Of a stretch of 35,777 nucleotides of DNA, positions 18,927 to 35,777 are shown in pieces. Origin of the DNA: an uncultured Eubacterium sp. (GTDB taxonomy: Bacteria; Bacillota; Clostridia; Lachnospirales; Lachnospiraceae); the NCBI GenBank assembly GCA_947178105.1, contig CAMWXD010000042.1, forward strand, positions 1-35,777, given 5' to 3'. Below the pieces are notes generated by a model that did no database searches, was not told where the DNA came from, and saw nothing but the letters and a program-made list of their open reading frames with translations. Numbering within the stretch: position 1 is the first letter of the stretch; each line of letters opens with the position of its first letter. The translations under genes were made by a program, and so were the position numbers.

Positions 18927-18989
18927 GGCGAATTTAAGGAATTTTTTCCGTCGAATGCTGTCGAATATTTTGTCTCCTACTATGATTGA
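18927..18989 (+). pseudogene. uvrB: 60-bp uvrB relic
   Basis: The frame reads [20 protein letters not shown] and then stops. This matches UvrB just after its ATP-binding motif and ends three codons beyond the point where the two longer fragments at 24324 and 27524 are cut. Sequence on both sides is unrelated to uvrB. It is too short to be functional and looks like a scar or old attachment site. Confidence 0.75.
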
Positions 18990-18996
18990 ATGACAG

Positions 18997-19164
18997 GTGA
19001 CTCAATATATAGTATTTTACAGAGATGACAGAACAATATATAGAGTAAAAACGGACGAGTTAGGACTATATGAACCGTGCGGACGGACAGTTACGGTGAA
19101 CAGGATTCGTCCAAAGGTCTATGCTAAAAGTGGTGTAGTGGACAGAGGCAGGGCATTAAAATAA
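18997..19164 (+). CDS. Possible 55-residue hypothetical protein
   Basis: From a GTG, the frame encodes a 55-residue basic protein (VTQYIVFYRDDRTIYRVKT at the start, DRGRALK at the end) and begins right after the uvrB relic. The ribosome site is poor and no family was recognised. It may be a fragment of a larger gene. Confidence 0.35.
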   Translation: MTQYIVFYRDDRTIYRVKTDELGLYEPCGRTVTVNRIRPKVYAKSGVVDRGRALK

Positions 19165-19181: not shown

Positions 19182-19210
19182 TTGTGCAATATTGTTAAAC
19201 GTGATAAAAT
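19182..19210 (+). promoter_or_regulatory. Promoter for the Rpn-like nuclease gene
   Basis: TTGTGC (19182-19187), 17 bp, TAAAAT (19205-19210), 32 bp upstream of the ATG. Confidence 0.5.
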
Positions 19211-19242
19211 TGAATTACAATAGAGAAGGGAGATGGGGCTCT

Positions 19243-20085
19243 ATGGAAAAGACAGAATGGCATCCAGCGTTTTGTGCCGCAATGCGTCTGGAGCTTAGAG
19301 ACAATCCTGCATTAGAGTTCTATGATGAATATAATTTGAATGTAGATCCGCTTTGGGTGGATTTGCTGATTATTCATAAACCGTCTGATGTAAAGATAGA
19401 TAATCAGATAGGCGAATTTTTCAGGGAAAACAATATCCTTGAATACAAAAGTCCGACAGATCATGGGTACAATGAATATGGGGTGTATCAGGCCATGTCA
19501 TATGTGTACTATTATTACGATAGATACAGGACTATGGATGTTACATTATCTATGGTGGTCAGCAAGAGCCATTTTAACCTGCTTAAATGGTTTGACAGAC
19601 AGGGTATCCGATATAGCAGGAGACACCAGGGCATTTATGATATTTCTGATTTGCAGTTTATCAAATGTCAGGTTATAATAACAGAAGAGATTGATAATGA
19701 TAATTTCAGATGGCTGTCGGCCCTTACTGACAAGCTGACAGAATCAAAAGCAAGAGATGTTATATCTACGGCTTATGCTATGCCGCAAGGCGAGAACAAG
19801 CGGCTTGCAGAAGCTGTTGTGCAAGCGATGCATGATGCAAATTCAAAATTATTTGAAAAAATAAAGGAGGATCGGACTATGGCATCTTCACTTTTTGAAC
19901 TTATGAGGCCAGAGATTGACAAATATGCAGAAAAAGAGGCGGATAAAAAAGTTAAAGAGGAAAGAACTATAATGGCTCAAATAGTCAGTGCCCTTGTAGC
20001 TGACAAGGATAATGATACAATCGTAAGGGAACTAAATTGTACATTGGATCAAATAGCTCCAATCCGTGCAGCTATGGGTAAGTAA
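19243..20085 (+). CDS. PD-(D/E)XK nuclease family protein (Rpn-like)
   Basis: This 280-residue protein has the nuclease core DPLWVDLLII (Asp40) followed by FFRENNILEYKSPTDH (Glu67-x-Lys69) and a QAMSYVYYY helix. Rpn-like proteins in Lachnospiraceae share this layout; they are linked to recombination and phage defence, and some databases mislabel them as isopropylmalate dehydrogenase. The C-terminal 80 residues are helical and charged (YAEKEADKKVKEERT). The ATG at 19243 has GAAGGGAG upstream; a TTG at 19192 is less likely. It lies among mobile-element debris. Confidence 0.75.
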   Translation: MEKTEWHPAFCAAMRLELRDNPALEFYDEYNLNVDPLWVDLLIIHKPSDVKIDNQIGEFFRENNILEYKSPTDHGYNEYGVYQAMSYVYYYYDRYRTMDVTLSMVVSKSHFNLLKWFDRQGIRYSRRHQGIYDISDLQFIKCQVIITEEIDNDNFRWLSALTDKLTESKARDVISTAYAMPQGENKRLAEAVVQAMHDANSKLFEKIKEDRTMASSLFELMRPEIDKYAEKEADKKVKEERTIMAQIVSALVADKDNDTIVRELNCTLDQIAPIRAAMGK

Positions 20086-23447: not shown

Positions 23448-24036
23448 GCGCATAGAAAACAATAGAATAATTCAGAATATAGGTAGAATTATGATTATAA
23501 ATTGCTCTGCACTTTAATAGAATTATTTTCCGGAAGTTCATATACTCGGTTTTTTCAAATGGAAAGAACTTCTGCTACATCTGGTACGCTCATTATATCA
23601 CTATATTGGTTTAGCATCTTTCAGGACTCCATGATGTGGTATCATAGCATATGATAATAAGGCTTGTGTATTCCTATTTTCTCCGTTTAAAAATGCAGAG
23701 GTAATATTTTGTGCAAAATAAACAAAATTATAGGTATAGCCGCAAGTTGCAAGATAAAACACGGTTACGTCTGATTTTTAAAGTTTCACAAACGTCCTGA
23801 ATGGTTAAAACAGATTCTTCTCGATTTATCATGGCAGCATTCTCTTTTTTTAAATAATATTTTAGTTTATATTTATGTTGATTTAGTTGCTGCTTACATA
23901 TTCAAGAATAATTCTGTAAAGGAAGATAAAACTAGGAATGTGAATATTTAAAATAGATGGAGCAATATGGATTTTTTGATAGAGAAAATAAAGAATGCGG
24001 TTCATTATTTTTAAAGCATATAAAATAAAACAATTA
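23448..24036. other. AT-rich region of about 590 bp with only debris
   Basis: No intact gene was recognised. The minus strand holds short frames, one listed separately at 23728-23832. The region lies between the hydrolase block and the uvrB promoter. Confidence 0.4.
23728..23832 (-). pseudogene. Possible excisionase-type HTH fragment
   Basis: A 34-codon frame begins MINREESVLTIQDVCETLKI, resembling the N-terminal helix-turn-helix of excisionase/MerR-like proteins, and stops before the wing. No good ribosome site is seen. Confidence 0.3.
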
Positions 24037-24087
24037 CGAACGGATGTTTGCTTTTGTATAGACAAATGAAAGCGCGTGTGTTACAAT
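24037..24087 (+). promoter_or_regulatory. SOS (LexA) box and promoter of the original uvrB
   Basis: CGAACGGATGTTTG (24037-24050) matches the Gram-positive LexA box CGAACNNNNGTTY. It is followed by TAGACA (24059-24064), 17 bp and TACAAT (24082-24087). uvrB is a standard SOS gene, so this is probably its native control region. It now drives only a broken 5' fragment. Confidence 0.65.
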
Positions 24088-24222
24088 AAATTAGATTACA
24101 CATTTTTGATTGTTGCTTCACAAGGACGAAAAATTTTTCATAGATTTTCCCGGATTTGCCAGACTGTCCATTCAGTTTAAGTACATTCGCACAGTCCGAG
24201 AAAACAGAAAGCGGTGAACGAA

Positions 24223-24273
24223 ATTCGTCGTGGAGCATTTTGGAGCAAAACTAAATACCTGCCCACGACGAAT
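24223..24273 (+). promoter_or_regulatory. 11-bp inverted repeat in the uvrB leader
   Basis: ATTCGTCGTGG (24223-24233) and CCACGACGAAT (24263-24273) are perfect complements. A smaller hairpin (ATAGTC/GACTAT) lies just before the GGAGG site. The function is unknown. Confidence 0.45.
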
Positions 24274-24323
24274 CACGGGCGGATAGTCGAACTTTTTGAC
24301 TATAGATTTTGGAGGTGGTATTT

Positions 24324-24594
24324 GTGCAAGATGCGCAAAATATCTTTAAATTACACAGTGAATACCAGCCTACAGGCGATAGAAGCACTCGTAAATGGCT
24401 TCAAAGAAGGCAACCAATTCCAGACTTTACTGGGTGTTACAGGTTCTGGCAAGACGTTTACAATGGTGAATGTTATCCAGCAGCTTAACAAACCGACTTT
24501 GGTAATAGCGCATAATAAAACGCTCGCTGCACAGCGCTATGGTGAGTTCAAGGAGTTTTTCCCTGAAAATGCAGTCGAATATTTTGTCTCCTAA
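24324..24594 (+). pseudogene. uvrB: Truncated and frameshifted uvrB 5' fragment (copy B)
   Basis: A GTG start after GGAGGTGG begins [20 protein letters not shown] 14-bp deletion between two ACAGGCGAT repeats near 24365 then shifts the frame. The other frame continues as [20 protein letters not shown], with the UvrB Walker A GVTGSGKT, to NAVEYFVS and a TAA. UvrB would continue YYDYYQPEAY, its DNA-binding beta hairpin. The break is where foreign DNA joins. It retains an SOS promoter, so it is probably the ancestral 5' end of the host gene. Confidence 0.88.
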
Positions 24595-24731
24595 TTTGGG
24601 GACAGGATGAAAACCGCATTATTTCGTGTTATTTGGTGCTGATTGTACTGTATTTTGTGGATGAAATAGGGGAATATGGACGAAATAACACCAGGCGGAT
24701 GGGTGGAGTTTGTGACCTGGATTCGTGTAAT
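24592..24731 (+). repeat. 140-bp element-end repeat, copy 1
   Basis: From the TAA that ends uvrB copy B, 140 bp match 27794-27933 without gaps, with about 15 differences by eye. It contains inverted arms GTGTTATTT (24626-24634) and AAATAACAC (24683-24691), a plausible recombinase-binding site. Confidence 0.85.
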
Positions 24732-24829
24732 GGACAGGATAGCATAACATAGTACAAAATGGTAGAGGGAATAGTGTTTGAGAAGAAATAAGGGAAACAG
24801 ATAATGCACAAATAAGGAGGAAACCAGCT

Positions 24830-25934
24830 ATGAACTATAGTCCAAAAACAGAGATATTAACTAATGAGGATGTAGATATCGAGAGGTTATGTGCTGAGAC
24901 AATAGCTTTGGTGAAGTATGCAAGAAATATTGCTGTTCAACAAGTGAATATGATACAATTACTTACCTAATTATGCTATTGGAAAATGGATTATAGAAGT
25001 GCAACAAAAAGGCGAATCAAGAGCAAAATATGGCAGTCAAATTATTAAAAGGCTATCAGAAGAAATGAAAAAGAATTTAGAAAGAGGATTTTCAGAGGAT
25101 AGTTTGAAAAATGCACGGAAGTTTTATCTGACCTATAAGGATAGAATTAGCGAAACAGTGTTTAACCTTTTTGCAGTTGAAAAAAGCGAAACAGTGTTTA
25201 GCCTTTTTGAAGAGAAACCGCCCTTTATAGTATCATGGTCACACTATTTGCAATTAATGCGAATAGAGAATGAAGATGAAAGAAGTTTCTATGAAATTGA
25301 ATCAGCAAGATCCGGATGGAGTGTCCGAACTCTGCAGAGGCAATATAATTCCAGTCTTTATGAAAGGTTAGCGCTTAGCCGAGATAAGGAGGCTGTTTTA
25401 CAGTTAGCAAAGAAAGGTAATATTATTACAAAACCAGAAGATATTGTGAAACAGCCAACAGTATTAGAATTTTTAGGAATAGAAGAAAAGATGAAGTATT
25501 CGGAAACAGATTTGGAAACAGAAATTATTAATAAATTGCAGAAATTTTTGCTGGAAATGGGAAAAGGATATCTATTTGAATCCAGGCAAAAGCGTTTTAC
25601 TTTTAACGAAGATAGTTATTATGTGGATTTGGTTTTATACAATCGCTTTCTTCGCTGCTATGTGCTGATTGATTTGAAGGTAGATAAACTGACACATCAG
25701 GATATCGGACAAATGCAGATGTATGTAAATTATTATGATCGTTATGAGAAATTGGGAGATGAAAATCCGACGATTGGTATTCTGTTATGTAAAGAGAATA
25801 ATGACGCACTGGTGGAGATTACACTGCCACAGGATGCTAATATATATGCATCCGAATACAAATTGTATTTGCCAGATAAGAAACTACTACAAGATAAGTT
25901 GCGGCAGTGGATAGAAGAAGCTGATATAGAATAG
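24830..25934 (+). pseudogene. Frameshifted DUF1016 (YhcG-type) PD-(D/E)XK nuclease
   Basis: An ATG after AAGGAGG encodes 46 residues (ending VNMIQLLT) up to a TAA at 24968. The next frame continues the same protein from NYAIGKWIIEVQQKGE, typical of the DUF1016 N-terminal helical domain. It then covers ARSGWSVRTLQRQYNSSLYERL and the nuclease core (YYVDLVLYN, then VLIDLKVDKLTHQDIGQM, with Asp...Asp-x-Lys). A single frameshift near 24965 separates the two parts; an internal start near 24999 could still yield the nuclease domain. YhcG-like proteins occur in defence and restriction-modification loci. Confidence 0.82.
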
Positions 25935-25947
25935 AAGTACGGAAATA

Positions 25948-26031
25948 ATGGACAAGTATTGTGTACGACAGGATAAAGAGTATATTTTAGAGTTTGACAA
26001 GGAAGTGGAAAGATATTTGAAGGATAAATAG
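25948..26031 (+). CDS. Short 27-residue ORF between nuclease and ATPase
   Basis: The frame (MDKYCVRQDKEYILEFDKEV to YLKDK) lies between the nuclease and ATPase genes. It may be a small protein or the tail of a lost gene; no ribosome site is evident. Confidence 0.25.
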   Translation: MDKYCVRQDKEYILEFDKEVERYLKDK

Positions 26032-26054
26032 TTATAGAATTGGGAGGTTTTGTT

Positions 26055-27503
26055 ATGTATGAGAATAAAAAAGAATTATTATCAAAATTAGAATTTGGAA
26101 GTGTGGATTCAGAGTCAGAGTTAGATTTAGATAGAAAATTCATAAAGACAAAAGATTTTGAAGAGTTTGTTCATCCACAAAAATCTTTGGTTTTAGGAGC
26201 AAAAGGTTCTGGGAAGAGTGCGTTATTTCAGATGTTTTCTAAGTATGAAGAAAAAGCAAGGGAGCTTGCAGAACTTGATAATAAAATAATGATAGTAACA
26301 GGAACAGGCTTCAATGATTTAAAGGAATTACAAACAGATGATTTTACGAAACTATTAAAGAACGAGGAAGCTGATTTTAATAAAATATGGGAACTATATA
26401 TTGCAGTAAAAATAGCAATTAAAATGGGAAAAGAGGGGTATTATTGTGGGGAAAATTTAGTTGAATTTTATAGACATGCAGGTATTATGGAGGATTTTAG
26501 AATACTAAATATTTTAAAACAATTGTGGAGTATGGTTATGGGGACTCCAATACAAGGAATAGATATTGACGTAAAAGGTGTAAAAGTTAAAATTGGTGGA
26601 AAATTTAGTATTGATACACAAGATATGTTGAGTGATATTAATGATGTTTTAGAGCAGGAAAGTATAGATTGTTGGATTTTATTTGATAAAATTGATGAAT
26701 TGTTTTCTAGTGACTATGGAAAGAGAAAGAATTGCATTGAAAGTCTTTTTAGAACTTATTTGAATTTTGTAAACAGATTTCCTAGAATAAAATTTAAGAT
26801 ATTTTTAAGAAATGACATTTGGTCTACATTAGAATTCGTGAATAAGAGTCATTTATCGGATAAAAGTGTAGAATTGTCATGGGATAAAAAAGATTTATTG
26901 CTTATGTTGATGCGTCGATGTTTAAATAATGAAATGGTGGAAGAATATGCATCAAACGAAATGGGAGTAGAAAAGGAAGAACTATTATTACATCCAAATC
27001 TGGAAGAGACTTTTTATACTATATTTGCTCGACAAGTGTACAAAGGGAAAAAGGAAGCAAATATGATTGATTGGTTGTTACAGCGAATAACAGATGGTTT
27101 AGGTGGAAAATATCCTAGAGAATTTATCAATTTTGCAAATTATTCCAAAGAAGTGCAAGAGGCTATAGGGGATTTTGAAGAAAATTGTTTGATTTCTGGT
27201 ATGGCAGTAAAAAAAGCTTTTTCTAAAGTGTCTGAAGTTAAATGTGATACATATTTAAGTGAGTTTCCAAAACTAAGAAAACATTTTGAAAGGTTCAGAG
27301 GGAAAGATACAGCTCGATACAGTAGAGAAGAAATATTTATACTTATGAATGGATTGGAACCCCAAGGAGATGATATGCTTCAAGCACTGTATGAAACAGG
27401 AATGTTAGAGGCAAAAAATGGGAAGGCATTTGCAGATCATCTATTTGAAATTCCCAAATTGTTTAGAATTGGTTTAGGTTTAGTATTGAGAGGGAGACCA
27501 TAA
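26055..27503 (+). CDS. P-loop ATPase (KAP/Sll1717-like), candidate defence protein
   Basis: This 482-residue protein has Walker [12 protein letters not shown] (about residues 53-63) and Walker [12 protein letters not shown] (hhhhDxxDE, about 210-220). A downstream segment, [18 protein letters not shown], fits a sensor-1-like strand. The remainder is helical with no recognised domain. The layout resembles P-loop ATPases of the Sll1717/KAP type, several of which occur in phage-defence loci; the function here is inferred from context only. The ATG at 26055 follows GGGAGG. uvrB copy C starts 20 bp downstream, so ATPase transcripts would drive the regenerated uvrB. Confidence 0.75.
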
Positions 27504-27523
27504 TTGTAGAAAGGTATATTATC

Positions 27524-27796
27524 ATGAATCATTTTGAATTAGTATCACAATACGCCCCCACAGGCGACCAGCCCCAGGCAATCGAAGAATTAGTAAAGGG
27601 GTTCAAAGAAGGTAACCAGTTCCAGACACTTCTCGGCGTTACCGGTTCTGGTAAAACCTTTACGATGGCAAATGTTATTCAACAATTAAATAAACCAACC
27701 CTTGTCATAGCGCATAATAAAACATTAGCAGCCCAATTATATGGGGAATTTAAAGAATTTTTCCCCAATAATGCCGTGGAATATTTCGTCTCCTAA
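27524..27796 (+). pseudogene. uvrB: Intact-frame uvrB 5' fragment (copy C), cut after codon 90
   Basis: This 90-codon open frame ([20 protein letters not shown] to NAVEYFVS) includes Walker A GVTGSGKT and stops at the same TAA as copy B. At protein level it is nearly identical to copy B, but many codons differ synonymously, so it is not a recent duplicate. It has a GAAAGG ribosome site and no SOS box. It was probably brought in by element 1 to restore uvrB and was then cut by element 2. Confidence 0.88.
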
Positions 27797-27933
27797 TTTG
27801 GGGACGGGGTGAAAAGCGCATTATTTAGTGTTATTTGGTGTTGATTGTACCATATTTTGTGGACAAGATGGGGGATTATGGACGAAGTAACACTAGGTGG
27901 ATGGGTGGAGTTTGTGACCTGGATTCGTGTAAT
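27794..27933 (+). repeat. 140-bp element-end repeat, copy 2
   Basis: This is the gap-free counterpart of 24592-24731. The inverted arms are retained with one G-T change (GTGTTATTT and AAGTAACAC). It marks the left end of element 2. Confidence 0.85.
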
Positions 27934-27961
27934 TATAATGCAAATAGCCAAGAAGAAAAAA

Positions 27962-28102
27962 TCAGGATAAACTTATAAATTCGCTGTAAGAAGATTTCAG
28001 TACAAAATTTTGTATATAACGAAATTTTAAGACTGAAAATCGCACACAGCAGGTCATTTTATATAAATATTCTATAAAATCAAGTTTATAAGTTTATCCT
28101 GA
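27962..28102. mobile_element. MITE-like 141-bp element with 18-bp terminal inverted repeats
   Basis: TCAGGATAAACTTATAAA (27962-27979) and its exact reverse complement (28085-28102) flank 105 bp of AT-rich non-coding DNA. GAAAAAA borders both sides (27955-27961 and 28103-28109), a possible 7-bp target duplication, although the A-run makes chance likely. Nested imperfect repeats inside would fold into a cruciform or RNA hairpin. It holds no ORF. Confidence 0.65.
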
Positions 28103-28119
28103 GAAAAAATTGAAAAATC

Positions 28120-28148
28120 TTGCATATTATAGCAGTTTTTGATATAAT
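28120..28148 (+). promoter_or_regulatory. Promoter of the RNase HI-RnlA gene
   Basis: TTGCAT (28120-28125), 17 bp, TATAAT (28143-28148). It begins 18 bp after the MITE-like repeat and 64 bp before the -10-to-ORF boundary is far exceeded by no other gene; the ATG at 28184 follows GAAAGGAG. Confidence 0.75.
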
Positions 28149-28183
28149 TATAAACCAATTTTTGATAGAAAGGAGTTGCTTTT

Positions 28184-29689
28184 ATGGCTAAAAAGAAGTT
28201 TTATGCGGTTAAAGTTGGAAAGGTGCCGGGTATATATAGTACATGGAGCGAATGCGAAGAACAAGTAAAGGGATTTCCAAGTGCAAGTTATAAGTCTTTT
28301 GCCACGTTGAGCGAAGCAGAGAATTTTATGTTGGACGAGGGGATTGAAAAGCTTGATTCAGATAATGGAAATTTGACAGAAAATACTATATCAACAGAAG
28401 ATTTTAATTCAATGGTAAATAATAGAATAGCTTCATTGGAAGAAGATGAAGTTATTGCTTTTGTCGATGGCAGTTATAATGTAGAGGAAGAAAAATCAGC
28501 ATTTGGCGCAATTATTATTAGCTCAGGTGGAAACAGAGATATCCTTTATAAAGCATTTACAAAAAATTTAGGAATGGATTTTATTGCATTAAGGAATGTT
28601 GCAGCAGAACTTGAAGGTGTAAAAGAGGCGGTAAATTGGTCTATCACATATAAAAAGAAAAAATTGACAGTTTTTTACGACTATGAAGGTATAGAAAAAT
28701 GGGCAACAGGTGAGTGGAAAGCCAAGAAAGATATAACAAAAAAATATGTTTCTTTTATTCAGCAGAAGAAACAAAGTATAGAAATAGAATTTATAAAAGT
28801 TTTAGCACATTCGGGAATTGAACTGAATGAAGAAGTTGATGCACTGGCTAAAAGTGCGTTGTTAGCTAAAGGATATAAAACTTATAATGATGGCTCTGTA
28901 TATTTTGTAGGTTATGGGTTAGATGATTGGAAAGCGATTGTTGACTGTATCAATGAAGAAAATAAGAATTTATCTGAAGAAAATATACCCGAAATCAATT
29001 TGAAAACAGAAAATATGGGTTCAAGGAATAAGATAACAATTCTTCAGTCCAATAATAAAGTAGTGGTTAATTGTTATTCAAATTCTAAATCATATGTGCA
29101 GGGAAAGCAGACAGTGCTTTTCCAAAAAGTAATTGCAACCGCCATAGAATTATTACGAACAGGTCAGAGCGTAATTGAAACATTAAACAGTTATCATGCT
29201 TTAACACTAGAGAAATCAGAGGTAGAAAATAGGTTTGATCAACTTTTACCACATTATAGAAAAGAGGGCGAAAAGCATTATGCTAATTTACTGTCAGCGG
29301 TATACAATACAATGCTGACGGGGTATATGCCCGATTATACATGCTTAGTGACACCTATTTTTAGAGCATATGAATTTTACTTGCATAGAATATTAGGAGA
29401 TGTTATGGGATTGGATACAGAAACCGATAAAGGAACTAATAAATTTTCATATTTTTCAAAAAATAGTGTTGGTATGTATGAATGTAATAATAAAGAAACG
29501 GGAAAGCTAAATGTAAATCAGTTAGATTATTTAAACAAGCTTTATACCCAATACAATAGTGTCCGTCATCCATATTCACATTGGTCTGCAAGTGACGAGG
29601 ATACTGCTGTAATCACAGATTGTGCATATGCAAGGGAGATAATAATGGATGGATTAGAAGTGGTAGATAAATATTACATACTCTTTTAA
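28184..29689 (+). CDS. RNase HI-RnlA fusion: HEPN ribonuclease toxin
   Basis: Residues 4-50 are a Caulimovirus-viroplasmin/RNase H hybrid-binding domain (KFYAVKVGKVPGIYSTW, then GFPSASYKSF). Residues 88-230 are RNase HI with a full acidic set: Asp95 (FVDGSYN), Glu142 (AELEGVKEAV), Asp166 (YDYEG) and Asp219 (EEVDALAK), plus His209. Residues about 240-350 resemble the repeated domain of RnlA (NKVVVNCYSN, SYVQGKQTVLF). Residues 355-501 match its HEPN domain, with R461-HPYS-H466 as the R-X4-H RNase motif. RnlA (RNase LS) cleaves mRNA and blocks T4-like phages; in E. coli it works with separate RNase HI. The RnlB-like gene lies 41 bp downstream. Confidence 0.8.
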   Translation: MAKKKFYAVKVGKVPGIYSTWSECEEQVKGFPSASYKSFATLSEAENFMLDEGIEKLDSDNGNLTENTISTEDFNSMVNNRIASLEEDEVIAFVDGSYNVEEEKSAFGAIIISSGGNRDILYKAFTKNLGMDFIALRNVAAELEGVKEAVNWSITYKKKKLTVFYDYEGIEKWATGEWKAKKDITKKYVSFIQQKKQSIEIEFIKVLAHSGIELNEEVDALAKSALLAKGYKTYNDGSVYFVGYGLDDWKAIVDCINEENKNLSEENIPEINLKTENMGSRNKITILQSNNKVVVNCYSNSKSYVQGKQTVLFQKVIATAIELLRTGQSVIETLNSYHALTLEKSEVENRFDQLLPHYRKEGEKHYANLLSAVYNTMLTGYMPDYTCLVTPIFRAYEFYLHRILGDVMGLDTETDKGTNKFSYFSKNSVGMYECNNKETGKLNVNQLDYLNKLYTQYNSVRHPYSHWSASDEDTAVITDCAYAREIIMDGLEVVDKYYILF

Positions 29690-29730
29690 TGCTATTAAAC
29701 ATATTATATATTTGGAAAGGAGGAAAGACA

Positions 29731-30081
29731 ATGAAAAAATTGATATTGCATCATATGGCAGATAGTACATACATTGGTATGGTTACTATATTAGATTATG
29801 AAATTTCATTAAAAAAATCCTTAGTAGAAATTTCTTTTCCTCCAGAAGAAAGTAAGAGAAAAATTATTGTAGATTTGGCGTTAAAATGTGGGGTTAATCA
29901 ATATAGATTCGTTGTGTTTGATATAAGTGCTGCGGGTAAAGTGATGTGGAATACCAGTGAATATATTGTTCCTAATAATGATATAGTGAATGTGGCAAAT
30001 ATGTATTTAAAAGAAAATAAGGAAATTGTACTAAATTCAATGTTACCGACAATAAAGAAAAAGGAAATATTGAATGTATAA
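29731..30081 (+). CDS. RnlB-like antitoxin
   Basis: This 116-residue protein follows the toxin and has a strong GGAAAGGAGG site before the ATG. The core EISFPPEESKRKIIVDLALK, CGVNQYRFVVFDI and GKVMWN resembles the RnlB family, where a strand is followed by a D-L-L/A-L...G...RF motif. It is expected to bind the HEPN domain and inhibit the RNase. Gene order (toxin first) is as in rnlAB. A longer in-frame start at 29689 overlaps the toxin stop and lacks a ribosome site. Family assignment rests on pattern and context. Confidence 0.65.
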   Translation: MKKLILHHMADSTYIGMVTILDYEISLKKSLVEISFPPEESKRKIIVDLALKCGVNQYRFVVFDISAAGKVMWNTSEYIVPNNDIVNVANMYLKENKEIVLNSMLPTIKKKEILNV

Positions 30082-30186: not shown

Positions 30187-30217
30187 TTAAATTTTTCAGG
30201 AAAGGAGGTAAAACGTG

Positions 30218-31039
30218 ATGTCTAAATGTAAGGTAATCGCTCTTGCAAACCAGAAAGGCGGGACGGGCAAGACCACGACTGCCGTAAATTTAGGGATAGG
30301 GCTTGCAAACGAGGGAAAGCGGGTACTGCTTGTGGACGCCGATCCGCAGGGGGATTTGACGACCTCTTTGGGGTGGACGGATCAGGACAATCTTCCTGTC
30401 ACACTGTCAACGCAGATGGAAAAGATTATCCGTGACGAGCCGTTTGAAGCGGGCGAGGGGATTTTACACCATGATGAAGGAGTAGACCTGATTCCGGCAA
30501 ATATTGAGTTATCCGGCATGGAAATCACGCTTGTAAACGCCATGAGCAGGGAGTTCACCATGAAATCCTATCTGAGCGAGCTGAAAAAGGACTATGACTA
30601 TATCCTGATTGACTGTATGCCGAGTTTGGGTATGCTTACCATCAATGCACTTGCGGCAGCAGACAGCGTGATTGTCCCGGTGCAGGCGCACTATCTCCCT
30701 TTAAAGGGAATGACACAGCTTATGAAAACCATAGGAAAAGTGCAGCGGCAGATTAACCCCGGACTAAAGGTGGATGGGGTACTATTGACGCTGGCGGATA
30801 TGCGTACCAACCTTGCCCGTACCACAGCCGACAATCTAAGGCAGAATTACGGGAGGGTTATTAAAGTGTACCAGACGGTCATCCCCGTTGCGGTGAAAGC
30901 GGCGGAAACCAGTGCCGCAGGGCAGAGCATTTACAGCTATGACAAAAACGGTGCGGCGGCAAAGGCGTATGGAGCATTTACGAGGGAGGTGATACGCAGT
31001 GGCGAAAGAAATAAAAATGCCGCTTCCCTCAGCCGCTGA
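30218..31039 (+). CDS. parA: ParA/Soj-family partition ATPase
   Basis: This 273-residue ATPase begins MSKCKVIALANQKGGTGKTT, with the deviant Walker A KGGTGKTT (residues 13-20). It also has DADPQGDLTTSLG, YILIDCMPSLGMLTINAL and VPVQAHYLPLKG. With ParB it would segregate the element in its circular or extrachromosomal form. A GTG at 30215 is an alternative start 3 bp earlier; AAAGGAGG serves either. The end overlaps parB by 41 bp. Confidence 0.95.
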   Translation: MSKCKVIALANQKGGTGKTTTAVNLGIGLANEGKRVLLVDADPQGDLTTSLGWTDQDNLPVTLSTQMEKIIRDEPFEAGEGILHHDEGVDLIPANIELSGMEITLVNAMSREFTMKSYLSELKKDYDYILIDCMPSLGMLTINALAAADSVIVPVQAHYLPLKGMTQLMKTIGKVQRQINPGLKVDGVLLTLADMRTNLARTTADNLRQNYGRVIKVYQTVIPVAVKAAETSAAGQSIYSYDKNGAAAKAYGAFTREVIRSGERNKNAASLSR

Positions 31040-31934
31040 CCTGTTCAGCACACAGGAGGAACGAGACAACGCAAGCCGGGAATCTGTCAGGGACATTCCA
31101 CTGGAAGAAATCAGCGATTTCCCCAATCACCCATTTAAGGTAAAAATGGACGAAAGCATGGCGGATATGGCAAAGAGCGTAAAACAGTATGGCGTTCTTG
31201 TCCCTGCGCTTGTTAGGGAAAAGCCGGAGGGCGGTTATGAAATGATAGCCGGACACAGGCGAAAAATGGCAAGCGAACTTGCAGAGAAAAAAGAGATACC
31301 CTGCATTGTCCGTAACTTAACAGATGATGAAGCGGTATTGATTATGGTGGATTCAAACCTGCAAAGAGAGCAGATACTACCATCAGAAAAAGCGTTTGCC
31401 TATAAGATGAAACTGGACGCAATGAAAAGACAGGCAGGCAGACCGAGTAAAAATTCTGCAACAGTGTTGCCGAATTTTGATGGAAAGACCTCAAGGCAGA
31501 TTTTGGCAGAGCAAGTGGGTGAGAGCCATGAGCAAATACGCAAGTATATCCGTTTGACCGAGTTAATCACGCCAATTCTGGATATGGTTGATGACGGTAA
31601 AATTGCCATACGTCCGGCGGTAGAGTTGTCTTACCTGCCGAAAGAGCAACAAACCGCCCTGCTTGACACCATGCAGTTAGAGGACTGCACACCGAGCCAT
31701 GCGCAGGCGATTAAAATGCGTAAATTTTCAGAGGAAGGGAGACTGAATGAGGATGTCATTCTCTCTATCCTGTCAGAGGAAAAAGGGAACCAGAAGGAGC
31801 AGTTTCGTATGCCGAAAGAGCGTATCAGCAAATATTTTTCACCGGGGACGCCTGCGAAACAGATGGAGGATACGATTGTAAAGGCACTGGAGCTGTACCG
31901 GAAACGGGAGCGAAGTAAGGACAGGGAACGGTAG
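30999..31934 (+). CDS. parB: ParB/Spo0J-family partition protein
   Basis: This 311-residue protein starts at GTG, overlapping parA, with GGGAGGTG upstream. The ParB nuclease-like/CTPase domain (about 25-120) includes VPALVREK and MIAGHRRKMASEL. The HTH region follows (SRQILAEQVGESHEQIRKYI and IAIRPAVELSYLPKEQQ). The C-terminal part is basic. It would bind centromere-like sites of the element and act with ParA. Confidence 0.94.
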   Translation: MAKEIKMPLPSAADLFSTQEERDNASRESVRDIPLEEISDFPNHPFKVKMDESMADMAKSVKQYGVLVPALVREKPEGGYEMIAGHRRKMASELAEKKEIPCIVRNLTDDEAVLIMVDSNLQREQILPSEKAFAYKMKLDAMKRQAGRPSKNSATVLPNFDGKTSRQILAEQVGESHEQIRKYIRLTELITPILDMVDDGKIAIRPAVELSYLPKEQQTALLDTMQLEDCTPSHAQAIKMRKFSEEGRLNEDVILSILSEEKGNQKEQFRMPKERISKYFSPGTPAKQMEDTIVKALELYRKRERSKDRER

Positions 31935-32113
31935 CAAAGTAAGGCTTTCCGCCGTGGGGCATTTATGCCCTTTTGTGGATAGCCTTTTTCCCGTTTCCCC
32001 CTTCCCACACCCTAACCCCCTTCAGTTACCAGCCGAATACCAGCCGAAAAAACAATATGGAGCCGGTGGCTATCCATGTTCCGGCTGGCACAGCAGAACA
32101 GCCAGTTTACCAA

Positions 32114-32138
32114 CCCTGCATACCGCAGGGATTTTTTT
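32114..32138 (+). terminator. Terminator after parAB
   Basis: CCCTGC and GCAGGG are perfect arms around ATACC and are followed by ATTTTTTT. It lies only 31 bp before the Cna-B gene start, so it separates that gene from parAB or attenuates it. Confidence 0.75.
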
Positions 32139-32168
32139 ATGCCAAAAAATAAAATGGAGGTAAGTAGA

Positions 32169-35100
32169 TTGAAGAAGTTGAAAGAAAGATTGAAAAGAGG
32201 GCTTGCCATGATGATGGTGGCGGCAGCTATGATTTCCGTATTTCCGTCCATGCCCGTGTCAGCAGCGTCGGAAACAGCGAAGATTACGTTTGCATACTGC
32301 CATGACGGGGCGGGTAATACGATCCGTTACCAGCAGAGCGTCACCCATGATGGGAGGAACTGCGGCGAGGCAGGGGAGGCAAGAACCCGTATCTATGCGG
32401 ACGGGGAGCCTGCTTTCTGCATCCAGCCGGGAGTGTCGCTGCATACGGGGAACACGCTGCGGGCAAATGCGTCTGACACATGGAATGCCCTGAGCGGAAG
32501 CCAGAGGAATGCGGTAAACCTTGCGCTTTTATATGGTTCACAGGGCAGCATGGGGAGCCTTCCGGGTTCCGAGGATGAAAAAGTGGTTGCCACACAGATG
32601 GTCATATGGGAGATCGTGACCAGGTGCAGGAGTGCAAGCGCACCGTATAACAGGACGGACAGCAAATTTTATGATAGCCTTTGCGCAAACGGGGCGAATG
32701 GCGGCGTGTCCGCAGCATACAGCCAGATTGTGGCGGGGATGCAGGAACACGGGACGATCCCAAGCTTTGCGTCTACCAGCCGGGGAGCCGTCGTAAAGGA
32801 GCTTTCGTGGAATGGGGAAAAATATGTCCTGAACCTGACGGATACGAATGGGGTTTTATCAAAATATAACTTCACATCTTCAGACAGCAGCGTTTCCGTG
32901 AGTGCGTCCGGGAATACCCTGACAATCAGCTCCAAAAAGGCAGTGACGGAGGAAGTGGTTTTATCCGCAACGAAGAGAAGCCCAGCAGTCAGCGGCACAC
33001 TGGTAGCCTATGGCGATGCGTCCCTGCAGGACGTCGTGGTGGGCGTGGAGAGCGCAGCCGACATCACGGTTTACCTGAGTGTGAAAATCCCTTACGGCCA
33101 TGTGCAGATTGTGAAAACATCCGAGGACGGAATCGTGGAGGGGCTGAAATTCCAGATTACGGGCAACGGGATCGACAAGACGGTGGTAACAGGGAAGAAT
33201 GGCAAGATTAAGGTAGAGAACCTGAATCCGGGAACCTACACCGTGACGGAATTGAAAGAGGAACGCTATGAAACGCAGAAATCACAGAAGGTGACCGTTT
33301 CGGGCGGGCAGACCGCAAAGGTTGAGTTTTCCAACATCTTAAAGCGTGGCGATTTGAAAGTAATCAAGAGTTCCGAGGATAATTTCGTGGAGGGCGTGAG
33401 GTTCCATTTGTACGGGACGTCCCTTTCTGGTGCAACGGTGGATGAGTATGCAGTGACTGACAAGAACGGAGTCGCTATGTTTTCCAACATCCTGATTTCC
33501 GGCTCCACACCATACACCCTTGAGGAAGTGGACACCGCTGTCCGCTATGTCATCCCTGCAAAGCAGAGCGTCACAATCAAGTGGAAGGAAGTCACCAGCG
33601 CAACCGTGACCAACATCCTAAAGAAATTCCGTGTGAATGTGACAAAAACAGATAAGGAAACCGGGGAGCCGCAGGGCGACGCAACACTGGCAGGCGCAGT
33701 ATATGGCATTTATGATGGGGACACCCTGATCGACACCTATACCACCGACAGCGAGGGGAAATTCACCACAAAGTATTATATCTGCGGCTATGACTGGAAT
33801 ATCCGTGAAATCACGCCGTCCGAAGGCTACCTGCTGGATGAAACCGTACACCATGTAGGGGCGAAGCCGGAGAATTATACGATTGAGTTGAACACCACTT
33901 CCAATGACGTGAATGAGCAGGTCATCAAAGGGCGCATATCCATCATCAAGCATACCGACGATGGCAGCACGCAGATTGAAACGCCGGAGGAAGGCGCAGA
34001 ATTCCAGGTGTATTTAAAGAGTTCCGGCAGCTATGACAACGCAAAAGAGAGCGAGAGGGACACGCTGATTTGTGACCAGTACGGCTATGCGGAAACAAAA
34101 GACCTGCCTTATGGCGTTTACACCGTCCACCAGACCAAAGGCTGGGAAGGCAGCGAGCTTATGAAGGATTTTGACGTGTATGTCAGCAGGGACGGGGAGG
34201 TTTACCGTTACCTGATCAACAACAGACCGTTTGCATCCTATATCAAGATTGTGAAGAAGGACGCAGAAACAGGAAAGACCATCCCACTTGCAGGCGCAGG
34301 CTACCAGATTTATGACGAAGCCGGGGAGCTTGTCACCATGAAGTACACCTACCCGGAAGTGACAACGCTGGATACGTTCTATACCGGATCGGACGGCTAT
34401 CTGATTACGCCAGAGGAACTTCCCTTTGGGAATTACACAATGGTTGAGGTGCAGGCTCCCTATGGCTATGTGCTGGATTCCACGCCAATCCCATTCACCG
34501 TAGCGCAGGAAAACTCCACCGAGGAAAGCGGCGTGACGGTTGTTGTGGCGGAGCAGAAAAATATGCCGCAGAAAGGCAGAATCCTTGTGTCCAAGACCGC
34601 CGAGGAATTTGCGGGCGTGCAGACGTCCGGCGACGGCGTGGTTGACAAAGCCGGGAATCTGGCAGAGGGCGAGAATATCTATACCCCGGTCTATGAAGTG
34701 GCTGGAAAAGCGGGCGCAGTGTATGAGGTTATCGCCGCAGAGGATATTGTGACGCAGGACGGAACCGTGCGGGCAAGCGCAGGGGAAGTCGTGGACACCA
34801 TTACCACCGATGAGGACGGGAACGCAGAAACAAAGGAGCTGTATTTGGGAAAATACAGGGTTGTGGAAGTGGCTGCGCCTTATGGGTGTGTGTTGAATAT
34901 CGAAGCCCACGAAATCGAGCTTGTCTATGCGGGGCAGGAGATTTCCGTAACGGAAACCGACACCGCCTTTTACAATGAGCGTCAGAAAGTGACGGTTGAT
35001 TTGACAAAGGCACTGGAGCAGGATGAAACCTTTAACATTGGAAATAGAGGGGAAATCCAGAATGTTGCGTTTGGGCTGTATGCGGCAGAGGATTTGACCG

Positions 35101-35741
35101 CTTCCAATGGCGACGTCATCCCGGCAGACGGACTCATTGAGATTGTATTCTGCAACACGGACAGCATGGCATTTTTCACAAGCGACCTGCCTTTCGGAAG
35201 TTATTATGTGAAAGAGGTATGCACCGACCAGCACTATATCCTTTCCGATGAGAAATACCCGGTAGAGTTCTCCTATCAGGGGCAGGATGCGGCACTTGTA
35301 AGCATCCATGCGAATGACGGGGAAGCCGTTGAAAATGAGCTGCTCCGTGGAAGAATCGAAGGAATCAAAGTAGACACAGAGGATCAGCCGCTGGAAAATG
35401 CAGTAATTGGTCTGTTTTCGGCAGGTACAGAGGAATTTACCGAAGAAACCGCACTGCTTGTTTCTGTAACAGGCGCAGAGGGGGCATTTGTTTTTGAGGA
35501 TGTGCCGTTTGGAAGTTATATCGTGCGGGAGATTGCGGCACCGGAGGGATATGTGCTGAACGAAGCACTCCACTATGTGTCTGTAACCGTGAATGGGGAA
35601 GTGATTGAAATCAAAATCACGGACAAGCTGATTATCGGCAGCGTCCGTCTGACAAAGGTTGACGCAGACTACCCGGCAAACAAGCTGACAGGCGCAGTCT
35701 TTGAACTGTATCAGGACACGGACTGTCAGCCAGCGAATTAA
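32169..35741 (+). CDS. Thioester-domain, multi-Cna-B surface protein, prematurely ended
   Basis: The TTG at 32169 lies 8 bp after GGAGG and gives a good signal peptide (GLAMMMVAAAMISVF, cleavage near VSAAS); an upstream ATG at 32076 would add 31 unlikely residues across a terminator. Residues 38-200 look like a thioester domain: Cys84 (PAFCIQPG) and Gln143 (ATQMVIWE) could form the cross-link used to attach covalently to host targets. From about 310, eight complete Cna-B/SpaA domains follow, with LPFGNYTMVEV- or GSYIVREIAAPEGY-type ends. A ninth begins (VRLTKVDADYPANKLTGAVF) but stops at DTDCQPAN. There is no LPXTG motif or membrane anchor, so the 3' end has probably been lost or displaced. 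Confidence 0.85.
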   Translation: MKKLKERLKRGLAMMMVAAAMISVFPSMPVSAASETAKITFAYCHDGAGNTIRYQQSVTHDGRNCGEAGEARTRIYADGEPAFCIQPGVSLHTGNTLRANASDTWNALSGSQRNAVNLALLYGSQGSMGSLPGSEDEKVVATQMVIWEIVTRCRSASAPYNRTDSKFYDSLCANGANGGVSAAYSQIVAGMQEHGTIPSFASTSRGAVVKELSWNGEKYVLNLTDTNGVLSKYNFTSSDSSVSVSASGNTLTISSKKAVTEEVVLSATKRSPAVSGTLVAYGDASLQDVVVGVESAADITVYLSVKIPYGHVQIVKTSEDGIVEGLKFQITGNGIDKTVVTGKNGKIKVENLNPGTYTVTELKEERYETQKSQKVTVSGGQTAKVEFSNILKRGDLKVIKSSEDNFVEGVRFHLYGTSLSGATVDEYAVTDKNGVAMFSNILISGSTPYTLEEVDTAVRYVIPAKQSVTIKWKEVTSATVTNILKKFRVNVTKTDKETGEPQGDATLAGAVYGIYDGDTLIDTYTTDSEGKFTTKYYICGYDWNIREITPSEGYLLDETVHHVGAKPENYTIELNTTSNDVNEQVIKGRISIIKHTDDGSTQIETPEEGAEFQVYLKSSGSYDNAKESERDTLICDQYGYAETKDLPYGVYTVHQTKGWEGSELMKDFDVYVSRDGEVYRYLINNRPFASYIKIVKKDAETGKTIPLAGAGYQIYDEAGELVTMKYTYPEVTTLDTFYTGSDGYLITPEELPFGNYTMVEVQAPYGYVLDSTPIPFTVAQENSTEESGVTVVVAEQKNMPQKGRILVSKTAEEFAGVQTSGDGVVDKAGNLAEGENIYTPVYEVAGKAGAVYEVIAAEDIVTQDGTVRASAGEVVDTITTDEDGNAETKELYLGKYRVVEVAAPYGCVLNIEAHEIELVYAGQEISVTETDTAFYNERQKVTVDLTKALEQDETFNIGNRGEIQNVAFGLYAAEDLTASNGDVIPADGLIEIVFCNTDSMAFFTSDLPFGSYYVKEVCTDQHYILSDEKYPVEFSYQGQDAALVSIHANDGEAVENELLRGRIEGIKVDTEDQPLENAVIGLFSAGTEEFTEETALLVSVTGAEGAFVFEDVPFGSYIVREIAAPEGYVLNEALHYVSVTVNGEVIEIKITDKLIIGSVRLTKVDADYPANKLTGAVFELYQDTDCQPAN

Positions 35742-35776
35742 ATTTTTCTATTACCGCAGGTTTGCGGCGAATTAAA
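35733..35776 (+). repeat. Short direct repeat at the right edge
   Basis: GCGAATTAAA occurs at the stop codon of the Cna-B gene and again about 33 bp later, at the window end. A CCGCA/TGCGG stem lies between. Continuation beyond the window is needed to tell whether this is part of an inserted element. Confidence 0.4.
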
Positions 35777-35777
35777 A

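Follow-up and report, generated by a model that had tools for sequence, protein, structure and literature searches.

What kind of process leaves the 5' end of uvrB three times over in one stretch of a chromosome? The question is raised by a contig of 35,777 nucleotides (CAMWXD010000042.1, assembly GCA_947178105.1) from an uncultured Eubacterium sp. of the Lachnospiraceae; the window analysed here is this entire contig (C42; numbers with G, C and L denote genomes, contigs and loci). We consider it highly probable that a family of integrative elements in the Lachnospiraceae uses uvrB as its attachment site, replaces the 5' exon of the gene and builds tandem arrays. The case is made from genome sequences: from the junctions and rebuilt reading frames, the arrays, neighbourhoods of uvrB that are contiguous or split, mosaicism of the gene, integrases adjacent to it and the decay of exons.

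In the proposed mechanism, the attachment site would be the uvrB codons for Val-Glu-Tyr-Phe-Val-Ser|Tyr, the cut codon being what we take to be the start of the UvrB beta hairpin. At its right end an element would bring its own replacement for the uvrB 5' end, ~85-100 codons long and in many cases preceded by a conserved leader; the larger elements would have this exon immediately behind tyrosine integrase genes, usually a tandem pair. Integration between Ser and Tyr would sever the resident 5' exon, leaving it before the left end of the element, and the exon of the element would join the resident 3' part in frame, giving a chimeric uvrB with the site restored. A next element could then enter the rebuilt gene, producing a tandem array with the oldest exon farthest from uvrB and made up of large conjugative-type elements and small integrase-less units with defence-type genes. 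The exchange is envisaged as integrase-mediated, within a few bases of TCC|TA, with binding sites at both ends.

The uvrB 5' ends of the window

Three uvrB 5' pieces lie on the forward strand of the window (Table 1; the start of the second is approximate). In the second and third, termed exons 1 and 2, coding stops after the codons for NAVEYFVS and is followed by TAATTTGGGGAC, such that a TAA comes directly after Phe-Val-Ser; the exact cuts are at 24591|24592 and 27793|27794. The copies are 79% identical across a 300-nt ungapped block that runs from the end of the exon into the adjoining sequence, and the junction sequence, which has just these two matches in the whole genome, shows 90% identity over 154 bp, the first 14 bp being exon. 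The claim of an original prediction for this DNA, i.e. that two uvrB 5' fragments share a cut codon, the TAA and the sequence that follows, is confirmed by these cuts and identities; it overlooked both a frameshift near the start of exon 1 (read by eye) and the third piece, at 18927.

With a hidden Markov model (HMM) of UvrB, 27530-27799 matches positions 1-90 (E 1e-44), 24370-24597 positions 15-90 (E 3.5e-34) and 18927-18989 positions 72-92 (E 1.2e-6). The 18927 piece is cut at the same codon, but a different sequence stands after the cut, and its HMM match runs on to 18989 because that sequence mimics YYD. These E-values, together with the recurrence of such pieces elsewhere, make a chance origin of the exon copies untenable, a judgement reached with no chance expectation computed. 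Erosion falls from left to right, from a piece with 51 bp left, through one with its frame lost near the start, to one with its frame intact. Over 237 nt, exon 2 shares 88.6% identity with the active exon of genome G003, where uvrB is intact, and it is 73-79% identical to the other active exons.

The source genome (4.95 Mb in 159 contigs, 95.6% complete, 8.26% contaminated) carries its uvrB on another contig, C22, where the gene, with uvrA (identified by eye) behind it, breaks off at the contig end at UvrB position 44 (HMM), inside the 5' exon. Since C42 itself stops at 35777, short of the far end of the array, the array of the window is not traceable to uvrB.

The cut codon across the Lachnospiraceae

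A survey set of 200 Lachnospiraceae genomes from 199 genera was queried with the 90-residue exon. Matches were found in 188, and 26 of the 200 have two or more, some of which may be split genes. Leaving out G000 gives 25 indicated genomes, of which 15 were examined (14 fetched, plus G163); the exon is cut at this codon in 15/15 of these fragment-bearing family genomes, beyond the genus of the window, and a further exon runs off the contig in G168. On alignment of 37 non-redundant junctions, including L061 with only ~27 bp of uvrB, the cut codon is the same in all. On the exon side, Ser is encoded by TCC, TCT, TCG or AGC, which implies that exchange probably occurs at or just after that codon.

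The 140-bp sequence following exons 1 and 2 defines a left-end type, T1. A T1 pattern search of genome contigs returned 20 stretches, three being G001 or G003 again. As anticipated in the original prediction, uvrB 5' fragments followed by this sequence recur: 18 of the 20 stretches lie behind a uvrB 5' fragment ending at the same residue, that of L060 being badly decayed. The T1 left-end pattern had no matches in viral contigs, and a plasmid search gave two Proteus records matching only the first 44 bp of the query (the uvrB side).

Arrays, rebuilt genes and integrases in relatives

Within the same genus, 12/13 genomes have a uvrB above the family cut-off. In G001, taken as Eubacterium plexicaudatum ASF492, an intact uvrB at 5910720 is preceded on the same strand by two stranded exons (5774330 and 5903669); a decayed exon lies ~1.2 kb ahead of the intact uvrB in G003 and a truncated one ~6.8 kb ahead in G009. 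These relatives contain what was expected beyond the window, another uvrB 5' end joined to a complete 3' part, and their arrays and junctions support the prediction that elements carrying a substitute 5' end integrate repeatedly at a conserved uvrB codon. The open frame of the rebuilt gene suggests that the rebuilt UvrB would work.

The neighbourhood of uvrB may be contiguous or split. The ctpA gene lies ~0.2 kb upstream of uvrB in G066 and ~0.7 kb upstream in G036, with ftsX and ftsE farther out; it was found upstream in 4 of the 20 regions fetched (L128, L131, L133 and L138), the rest having other neighbours. In G037 a stranded exon (C33:205409) still adjoins ctpA, ftsX and ftsE, and 128 kb beyond it are an integrase pair, a new exon and the remainder of uvrB. 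A VirD4-type coupling protein gene, identified in this one element, lies inside it (G037:C33:170929-172146, E 7.9e-42), along with further secretion/transfer-like genes identified by eye; phage structural genes were not noticed in it by eye, no dedicated search having been made. Large members of the family have two features of integrative and conjugative elements (ICEs), an integrase at the end and, in G037, a type IV secretion coupling protein.

A tyrosine recombinase (PF00589, E 1.5e-16) is encoded at 5901906-5903231 of G001. Used as a query at E<=1e-60, it gave 22 matches in 19/299 family genomes. A uvrB 5' end was present in the short flank of 18 of the 22, and longer stretches added L080 and L084, such that uvrB lies <=1.6 kb downstream of 20/22; for the remaining two, the contig ends ~0.3 kb past the gene (L073) or, near a contig start, there is no uvrB in the available 1.2 kb (L089). 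Thus, the integrase expected near a reconstituted uvrB is found in relatives. A second integrase is directly upstream in 15/22. The two kinds have 23-26% identity to each other's reference in the aligned set, and the residues R, HxxR, H and Y, presumably the catalytic residues of tyrosine recombinases, are invariant in 13/13 aligned integrases (nine of one kind, four of the other). The integrase pair probably performs the recombination.

A class-wide search at E<=1e-60 found the integrase in 2/391 genomes. One of the two genomes lies outside the Lachnospiraceae (39% identity), and the 19.9 kb fetched around its integrase contains no uvrB match; at this locus, L146 7499-10573 (G470), related integrases stand in tandem, possibly a relative with another target. 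At L070 (G221) the uvrB 5' end below the integrase pair consists of two matches ~280 bp apart, a possible insertion in the exon. Two other explanations of the arrays were tried and rejected. Against an integron cassette array stand the position of the cut in uvrB codons and the integron integrase model, on which one integrase scored 48.4 bits (cut-off 265) and the other had no listed match, attC sites being outside this search; an intron or splicing reading was dropped because every unit brings a complete new exon.

Small units and their cargo

Small units with an exon on each side, cargo and no integrase found occur in the window (3.2 kb), G047, G202 and G001 (6.8 kb). An integrase was looked for in the window unit and none was found, and there is no transfer gene among its two open reading frames (ORFs). 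The window unit (24592-27793) and that of G047 resemble cis-mobilizable elements (CIMEs) in having attachment (att) sites at both ends and no integrase or transfer genes found.

Such units could be cassettes moved in trans by the integrases of the large elements, like a gene-cassette array, an idea to which we give tentative credence, somewhat short of an even chance. The existence of the four units is in its favour, as is the recurrence of similar cargo families right behind the left end. Deletion remnants (CIME-like) fit equally, and the idea is weakened by the integrase remnants that the G040 unit and the G003 flank retain; the window unit has none. The integrase-less units may either move with the help of relatives or be deletion remnants.

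For the cargo, 43 junctions gave 40 first same-strand ORFs, of which 38 were scanned, the exceptions being L025 (transposase-like) and L053 (cut, 96 residues). These 38 first genes include nine RhuM, three PIN, two YhcG and two RnlA genes, and four with an RNase H1 N-terminal domain. The PADLOC candidate PDC-S05 matches 9/38 first genes, taken as the RhuM nine; YhcG matches PDC-S02 and the Sll1717-type ATPases PDC-M28C, such PDC entries being candidates rather than tested defence systems. When PADLOC was run on ten proteins there was no match for the RnlA and RnlB of the window and three others. The reverse transcriptase of the 6.8-kb G001 unit scores 1160.8 bits to RT_UG10. Overall, the cargo genes between discarded uvrB starts often look like antiviral defences.

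The small G001 unit at L026 8743-11277 lies right before the intact uvrB, and its UG10-type reverse transcriptase has a primase-like domain.

End motifs and the leader

The left ends are highly diverse, yet 30/37 have a GTGAC(N)ATTCGT motif (loose pattern) starting 109-121 bp past the cut; two of the seven left ends without it are too short. The motif recurs upstream of 29 of the 64 exons of uvrB, whether intact or stranded, in most cases 152-225 bp ahead of the PTGD codon. Its variable letters agree exactly between left and right in 4/7 units (G009, G037, G163 and G001 unit 2); one letter differs in G001 unit 1, window unit 1 disagrees and window unit 2 is without a right motif.

From the motif to a downstream ACGAAT arm, a 10-pair stem can be formed. 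In 20 sequences, picked out of the 64 for having the motif, 96% of 200 cells are paired and 35 are changed on both sides; 0/500 shuffles reach the paired fraction or the count of double-changed cells. Four of the ten pairs vary on both sides and five never vary, and neither the number of double-varying pairs (reached in 328/500 shuffles) nor the pair types (88/500) are above shuffling. The arms are present upstream of 32/64 exons and in 0/37 left ends; upstream of single-match uvrB loci they were found in 0/17, L120 and L124 giving no row, and L130, which has an element, carries them. Rfam gave nothing on the window at gathering scores, with no leader match, and on six loci a single match, below the gathering score and outside the leader (L128).

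These observations bear on the possibility, compatible with the use of uvrB as an attachment site, that the leader is a regulatory RNA controlling uvrB and that the elements chiefly switch nucleotide excision repair. Covariation of the arms, the position of the leader just before the exon start and the lack of arms at the 17 single-match loci are in keeping with such a role. We regard it as unlikely, given the pairs that do not vary, the preselection of the 20 sequences, the occurrence of the arms upstream of only half of the exons, the Rfam result and the sharing of most variable letters by the left and right ends of an element, which suits protein-binding sites. The motif is a putative binding site of recombination proteins, and the leader might also act as an RNA. 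By eye, the leader repeat at L072, L074 and L075 is interleaved with another long stem, which ends in TTTTT.

Mosaic uvrB genes and decay of stranded exons

In the intact uvrB genes of G001, G006 and G007 the exons are 93-96% identical, versus 79-80% for the next 900 nt. For 66 intact uvrB pairs of the genus, breakpoint positions relative to the junction are +11, +8, -18, +17 and -33 in the five strongest cases, and 0/200 permutations reach the value in each of the six strongest; G000 contributes only 135 nt of exon to this test. Exons are common between species more than 3' parts are.

Decay is evident in the 43 distinct stranded exons, which include L061 and two short pieces (window and G009): 12 have a stop, lost frame or truncation. 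Of the 31 others, 9 are changed at residues invariant in active exons, compared with 4/48 active exons (leave-one-out); because active exons are defined by reading on into uvrB, only this residue comparison is a fair contrast.

The arrays might instead be relics of one old integration, followed by duplication, RecA recombination between exons and random cargo insertion. Exon copies are direct repeats, the G169 pair is identical over 237 nt and the G001 pair 97% identical, and in several small units the integrase is absent or only a remnant. We nevertheless hold this to be very improbable, as the stranded and active exons have diverged in 7/10 pairs (74-86% identity; the G003 pair reads 58% only because an ungapped comparison crosses a frameshift), a single cut codon is common to several diverged types of left end, and exons are shared between species more widely than 3' parts.

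Weighing the evidence

Several observations weigh against the use of uvrB as a repeatedly rebuilt attachment site. No excision, transfer or recombination was observed. The query integrase has no match at E<=1e-60 in the source genome, where only distant integrases were found; 7/22 integrase matches are without a second integrase in the flank, L087 beginning at the contig end. G058 has its stranded exons on the strand opposite to uvrB and 4 Mb away from it. The stranded and active exons of G169 are identical, which implies that RecA exchange or duplication may also act. The sixth strongest breakpoint is at +540, and many weaker pairs also peak off the junction. In window unit 1 the left and right motifs are unlike, such that this unit may be a fusion of two. 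Lastly, at L061 and L064 no more than ~27 bp of uvrB-like DNA precedes the T1 sequence, and what lies farther upstream is unrelated. The original prediction had held that occurrence of the 140-bp sequence away from uvrB would tell against it; the association with uvrB stands in 18/20 stretches and is doubtful in these 2/20.

Two of these cases have further features. L061 (around 3686) and L064 share similar unrelated upstream sequence, marking either a truncated exon or a secondary site. At L096 (G058:C1:5444000-5458000) there are two stranded exons, whose distance to one contig end is about that of uvrB to the other; this suggests that a symmetric inversion split the G058 array.

An assembly or binning artefact in a contaminated genome, which the contamination value and the several contigs ending near uvrB might evoke, can be set aside almost entirely, since the same structure occurs within single contigs elsewhere, including one-contig G047 and G202 and the 6.3-Mb E. 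plexicaudatum contig; only the window's own unit order depends on its contig.

Relation to known systems and significance

The uvrB arrays behave like site-specific accretion of integrative elements in a gene that they rebuild. SCC elements occupy rlmH of staphylococci by means of serine recombinases (Ccr), at the 3' end of the gene. They are similar to the uvrB elements in repeated insertion in one coding gene that is kept, in composite arrays and in mixed cargo; they differ in that tyrosine recombinases and the 5' end are involved here. The Tn554 family, in radC, has two adjacent tyrosine recombinases and a third gene, and interrupts its target, to which it is not known to supply an exon. 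It shares with the uvrB elements the two adjacent tyrosine recombinases and a target annotated as DNA repair; the third gene and the interruption of the target set it apart.

Closer in process is a known case in which elements and their decayed relatives accumulate at a single att site, described for ICESt1-related elements in Streptococcus thermophilus (PMC5704250). Both there, among ICEs, integrative mobilizable elements (IMEs) and CIMEs, and here, incoming elements integrate in the att site of a resident (PMC5704250). The uvrB arrays differ in that every event replaces the 5' part of the target, ~85-100 codons that include the Walker A motif and often come with a leader, and leaves its predecessor behind; they differ also in the target, uvrB, and in usually having an integrase pair. 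SpyCI islands of Streptococcus pyogenes, according to the abstract of the report concerned, sit in the 5' end of mutL and switch it off and on, with a mutator phenotype, and a promoter within a decayed SpyCI integrase gene can rescue expression (PMC3430984). They too are site-specific islands in the 5' end of a DNA-repair gene, with the difference that neither a substitute coding exon nor arrays are reported in that abstract (PMC3430984).

A literature search, which covered mostly titles and abstract openings and the subscription literature thinly, found, among the papers listed, none naming uvrB as an integration site. New here are uvrB as a target, a 5' exon delivered with every element, the pairing of integrases and the arrays. 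These results add a protein-coding attachment site in a conserved DNA-repair gene whose 5' exon is exchanged at every event, and the N-terminal part of a core enzyme appears able to travel horizontally. The discarded exons appear ordered by arrival; this order may be readable from their positions, and arrays may serve as an integration record. The exact cut offers an easy way of searching gut Lachnospiraceae, fragmented genomes included, for elements and for defence genes. A possible effect of the elements on excision repair, comparable to that of SpyCI on mismatch repair, becomes directly testable.

A more far-reaching proposal, which we put forward as a conjecture with rather less than even prospects, is that uvrB is an exchange dock, at which 5' exons, many with a leader, are swapped between genera by a two-integrase system. 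The N-terminal ATP-binding part would then evolve as mobile DNA, and chromosomes would keep an ordered integration record together with small trans-mobile defence cassettes.

Further features of the window

The coordinates of the features are collected in Table 1.

Table 1. Features of the uvrB array in the 35,777-nt window
Feature	Coordinates	Strand	Basis or remark
Stranded uvrB 5' piece, most eroded, 51 bp	18927..18977	+	HMM, alignment
Left end type T2, end motif GTGAACAGGATTCGT at 19096-19110	18978..19110	+	Same type adjoins uvrB in G009 (L028)
Cargo gene just inside T2 left end	19192..20085	+	90% identical to L028 gene at same place
Right-end leader before exon 1, motif GTGAACGAAATTCGT at 24214-24228, paired arms 24223-24233 / 24263-24273	24214..24342	+	
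Stranded uvrB 5' exon 1, frameshifted, changes at two residues invariant in active exons	24305..24591	+	HMM, row L003
Left end type T1 (140-bp sequence), end motif GTGACCTGGATTCGT at 24712-24726	24592..24735	+	
Complete small unit, 3,202 bp: T1 left end, two cargo genes, replacement uvrB 5' exon	24592..27793	+	
Cargo YhcG/DUF1016 PDDEXK nuclease, without first part of DUF1016 domain	24999..25934	+	PADLOC candidate PDC-S02
Cargo P-loop ATPase, Sll1717 family	26040..27503	+	PADLOC candidate PDC-M28C
Stranded uvrB 5' exon 2, frame intact	27524..27793	+	HMM
Second T1 left end, end motif at 27914-27928	27794..27934	+	
Cargo RnlA-type toxin (RNase LS) behind RNase H1 N-terminal and RNase H domains	28184..29689	+	
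Cargo RnlB-type antitoxin	29689..30081	+	
Rest of third, open unit: ParA-like, ParB-like and 1221-aa protein (surface-type by eye)	30215..35777	+	Runs off contig

The cargo gene inside the T2 left end is nuclease-like by eye only, with no match in Pfam, PADLOC or NCBIfam. A consensus promoter scan of 24000-28200 found 24 promoters, compared with 17.5 (sd 4.9) expected. Proteins with the same start as the RnlA-type fusion of the window (28184-30081) sit behind T1 left ends in L050, L065 and L067.

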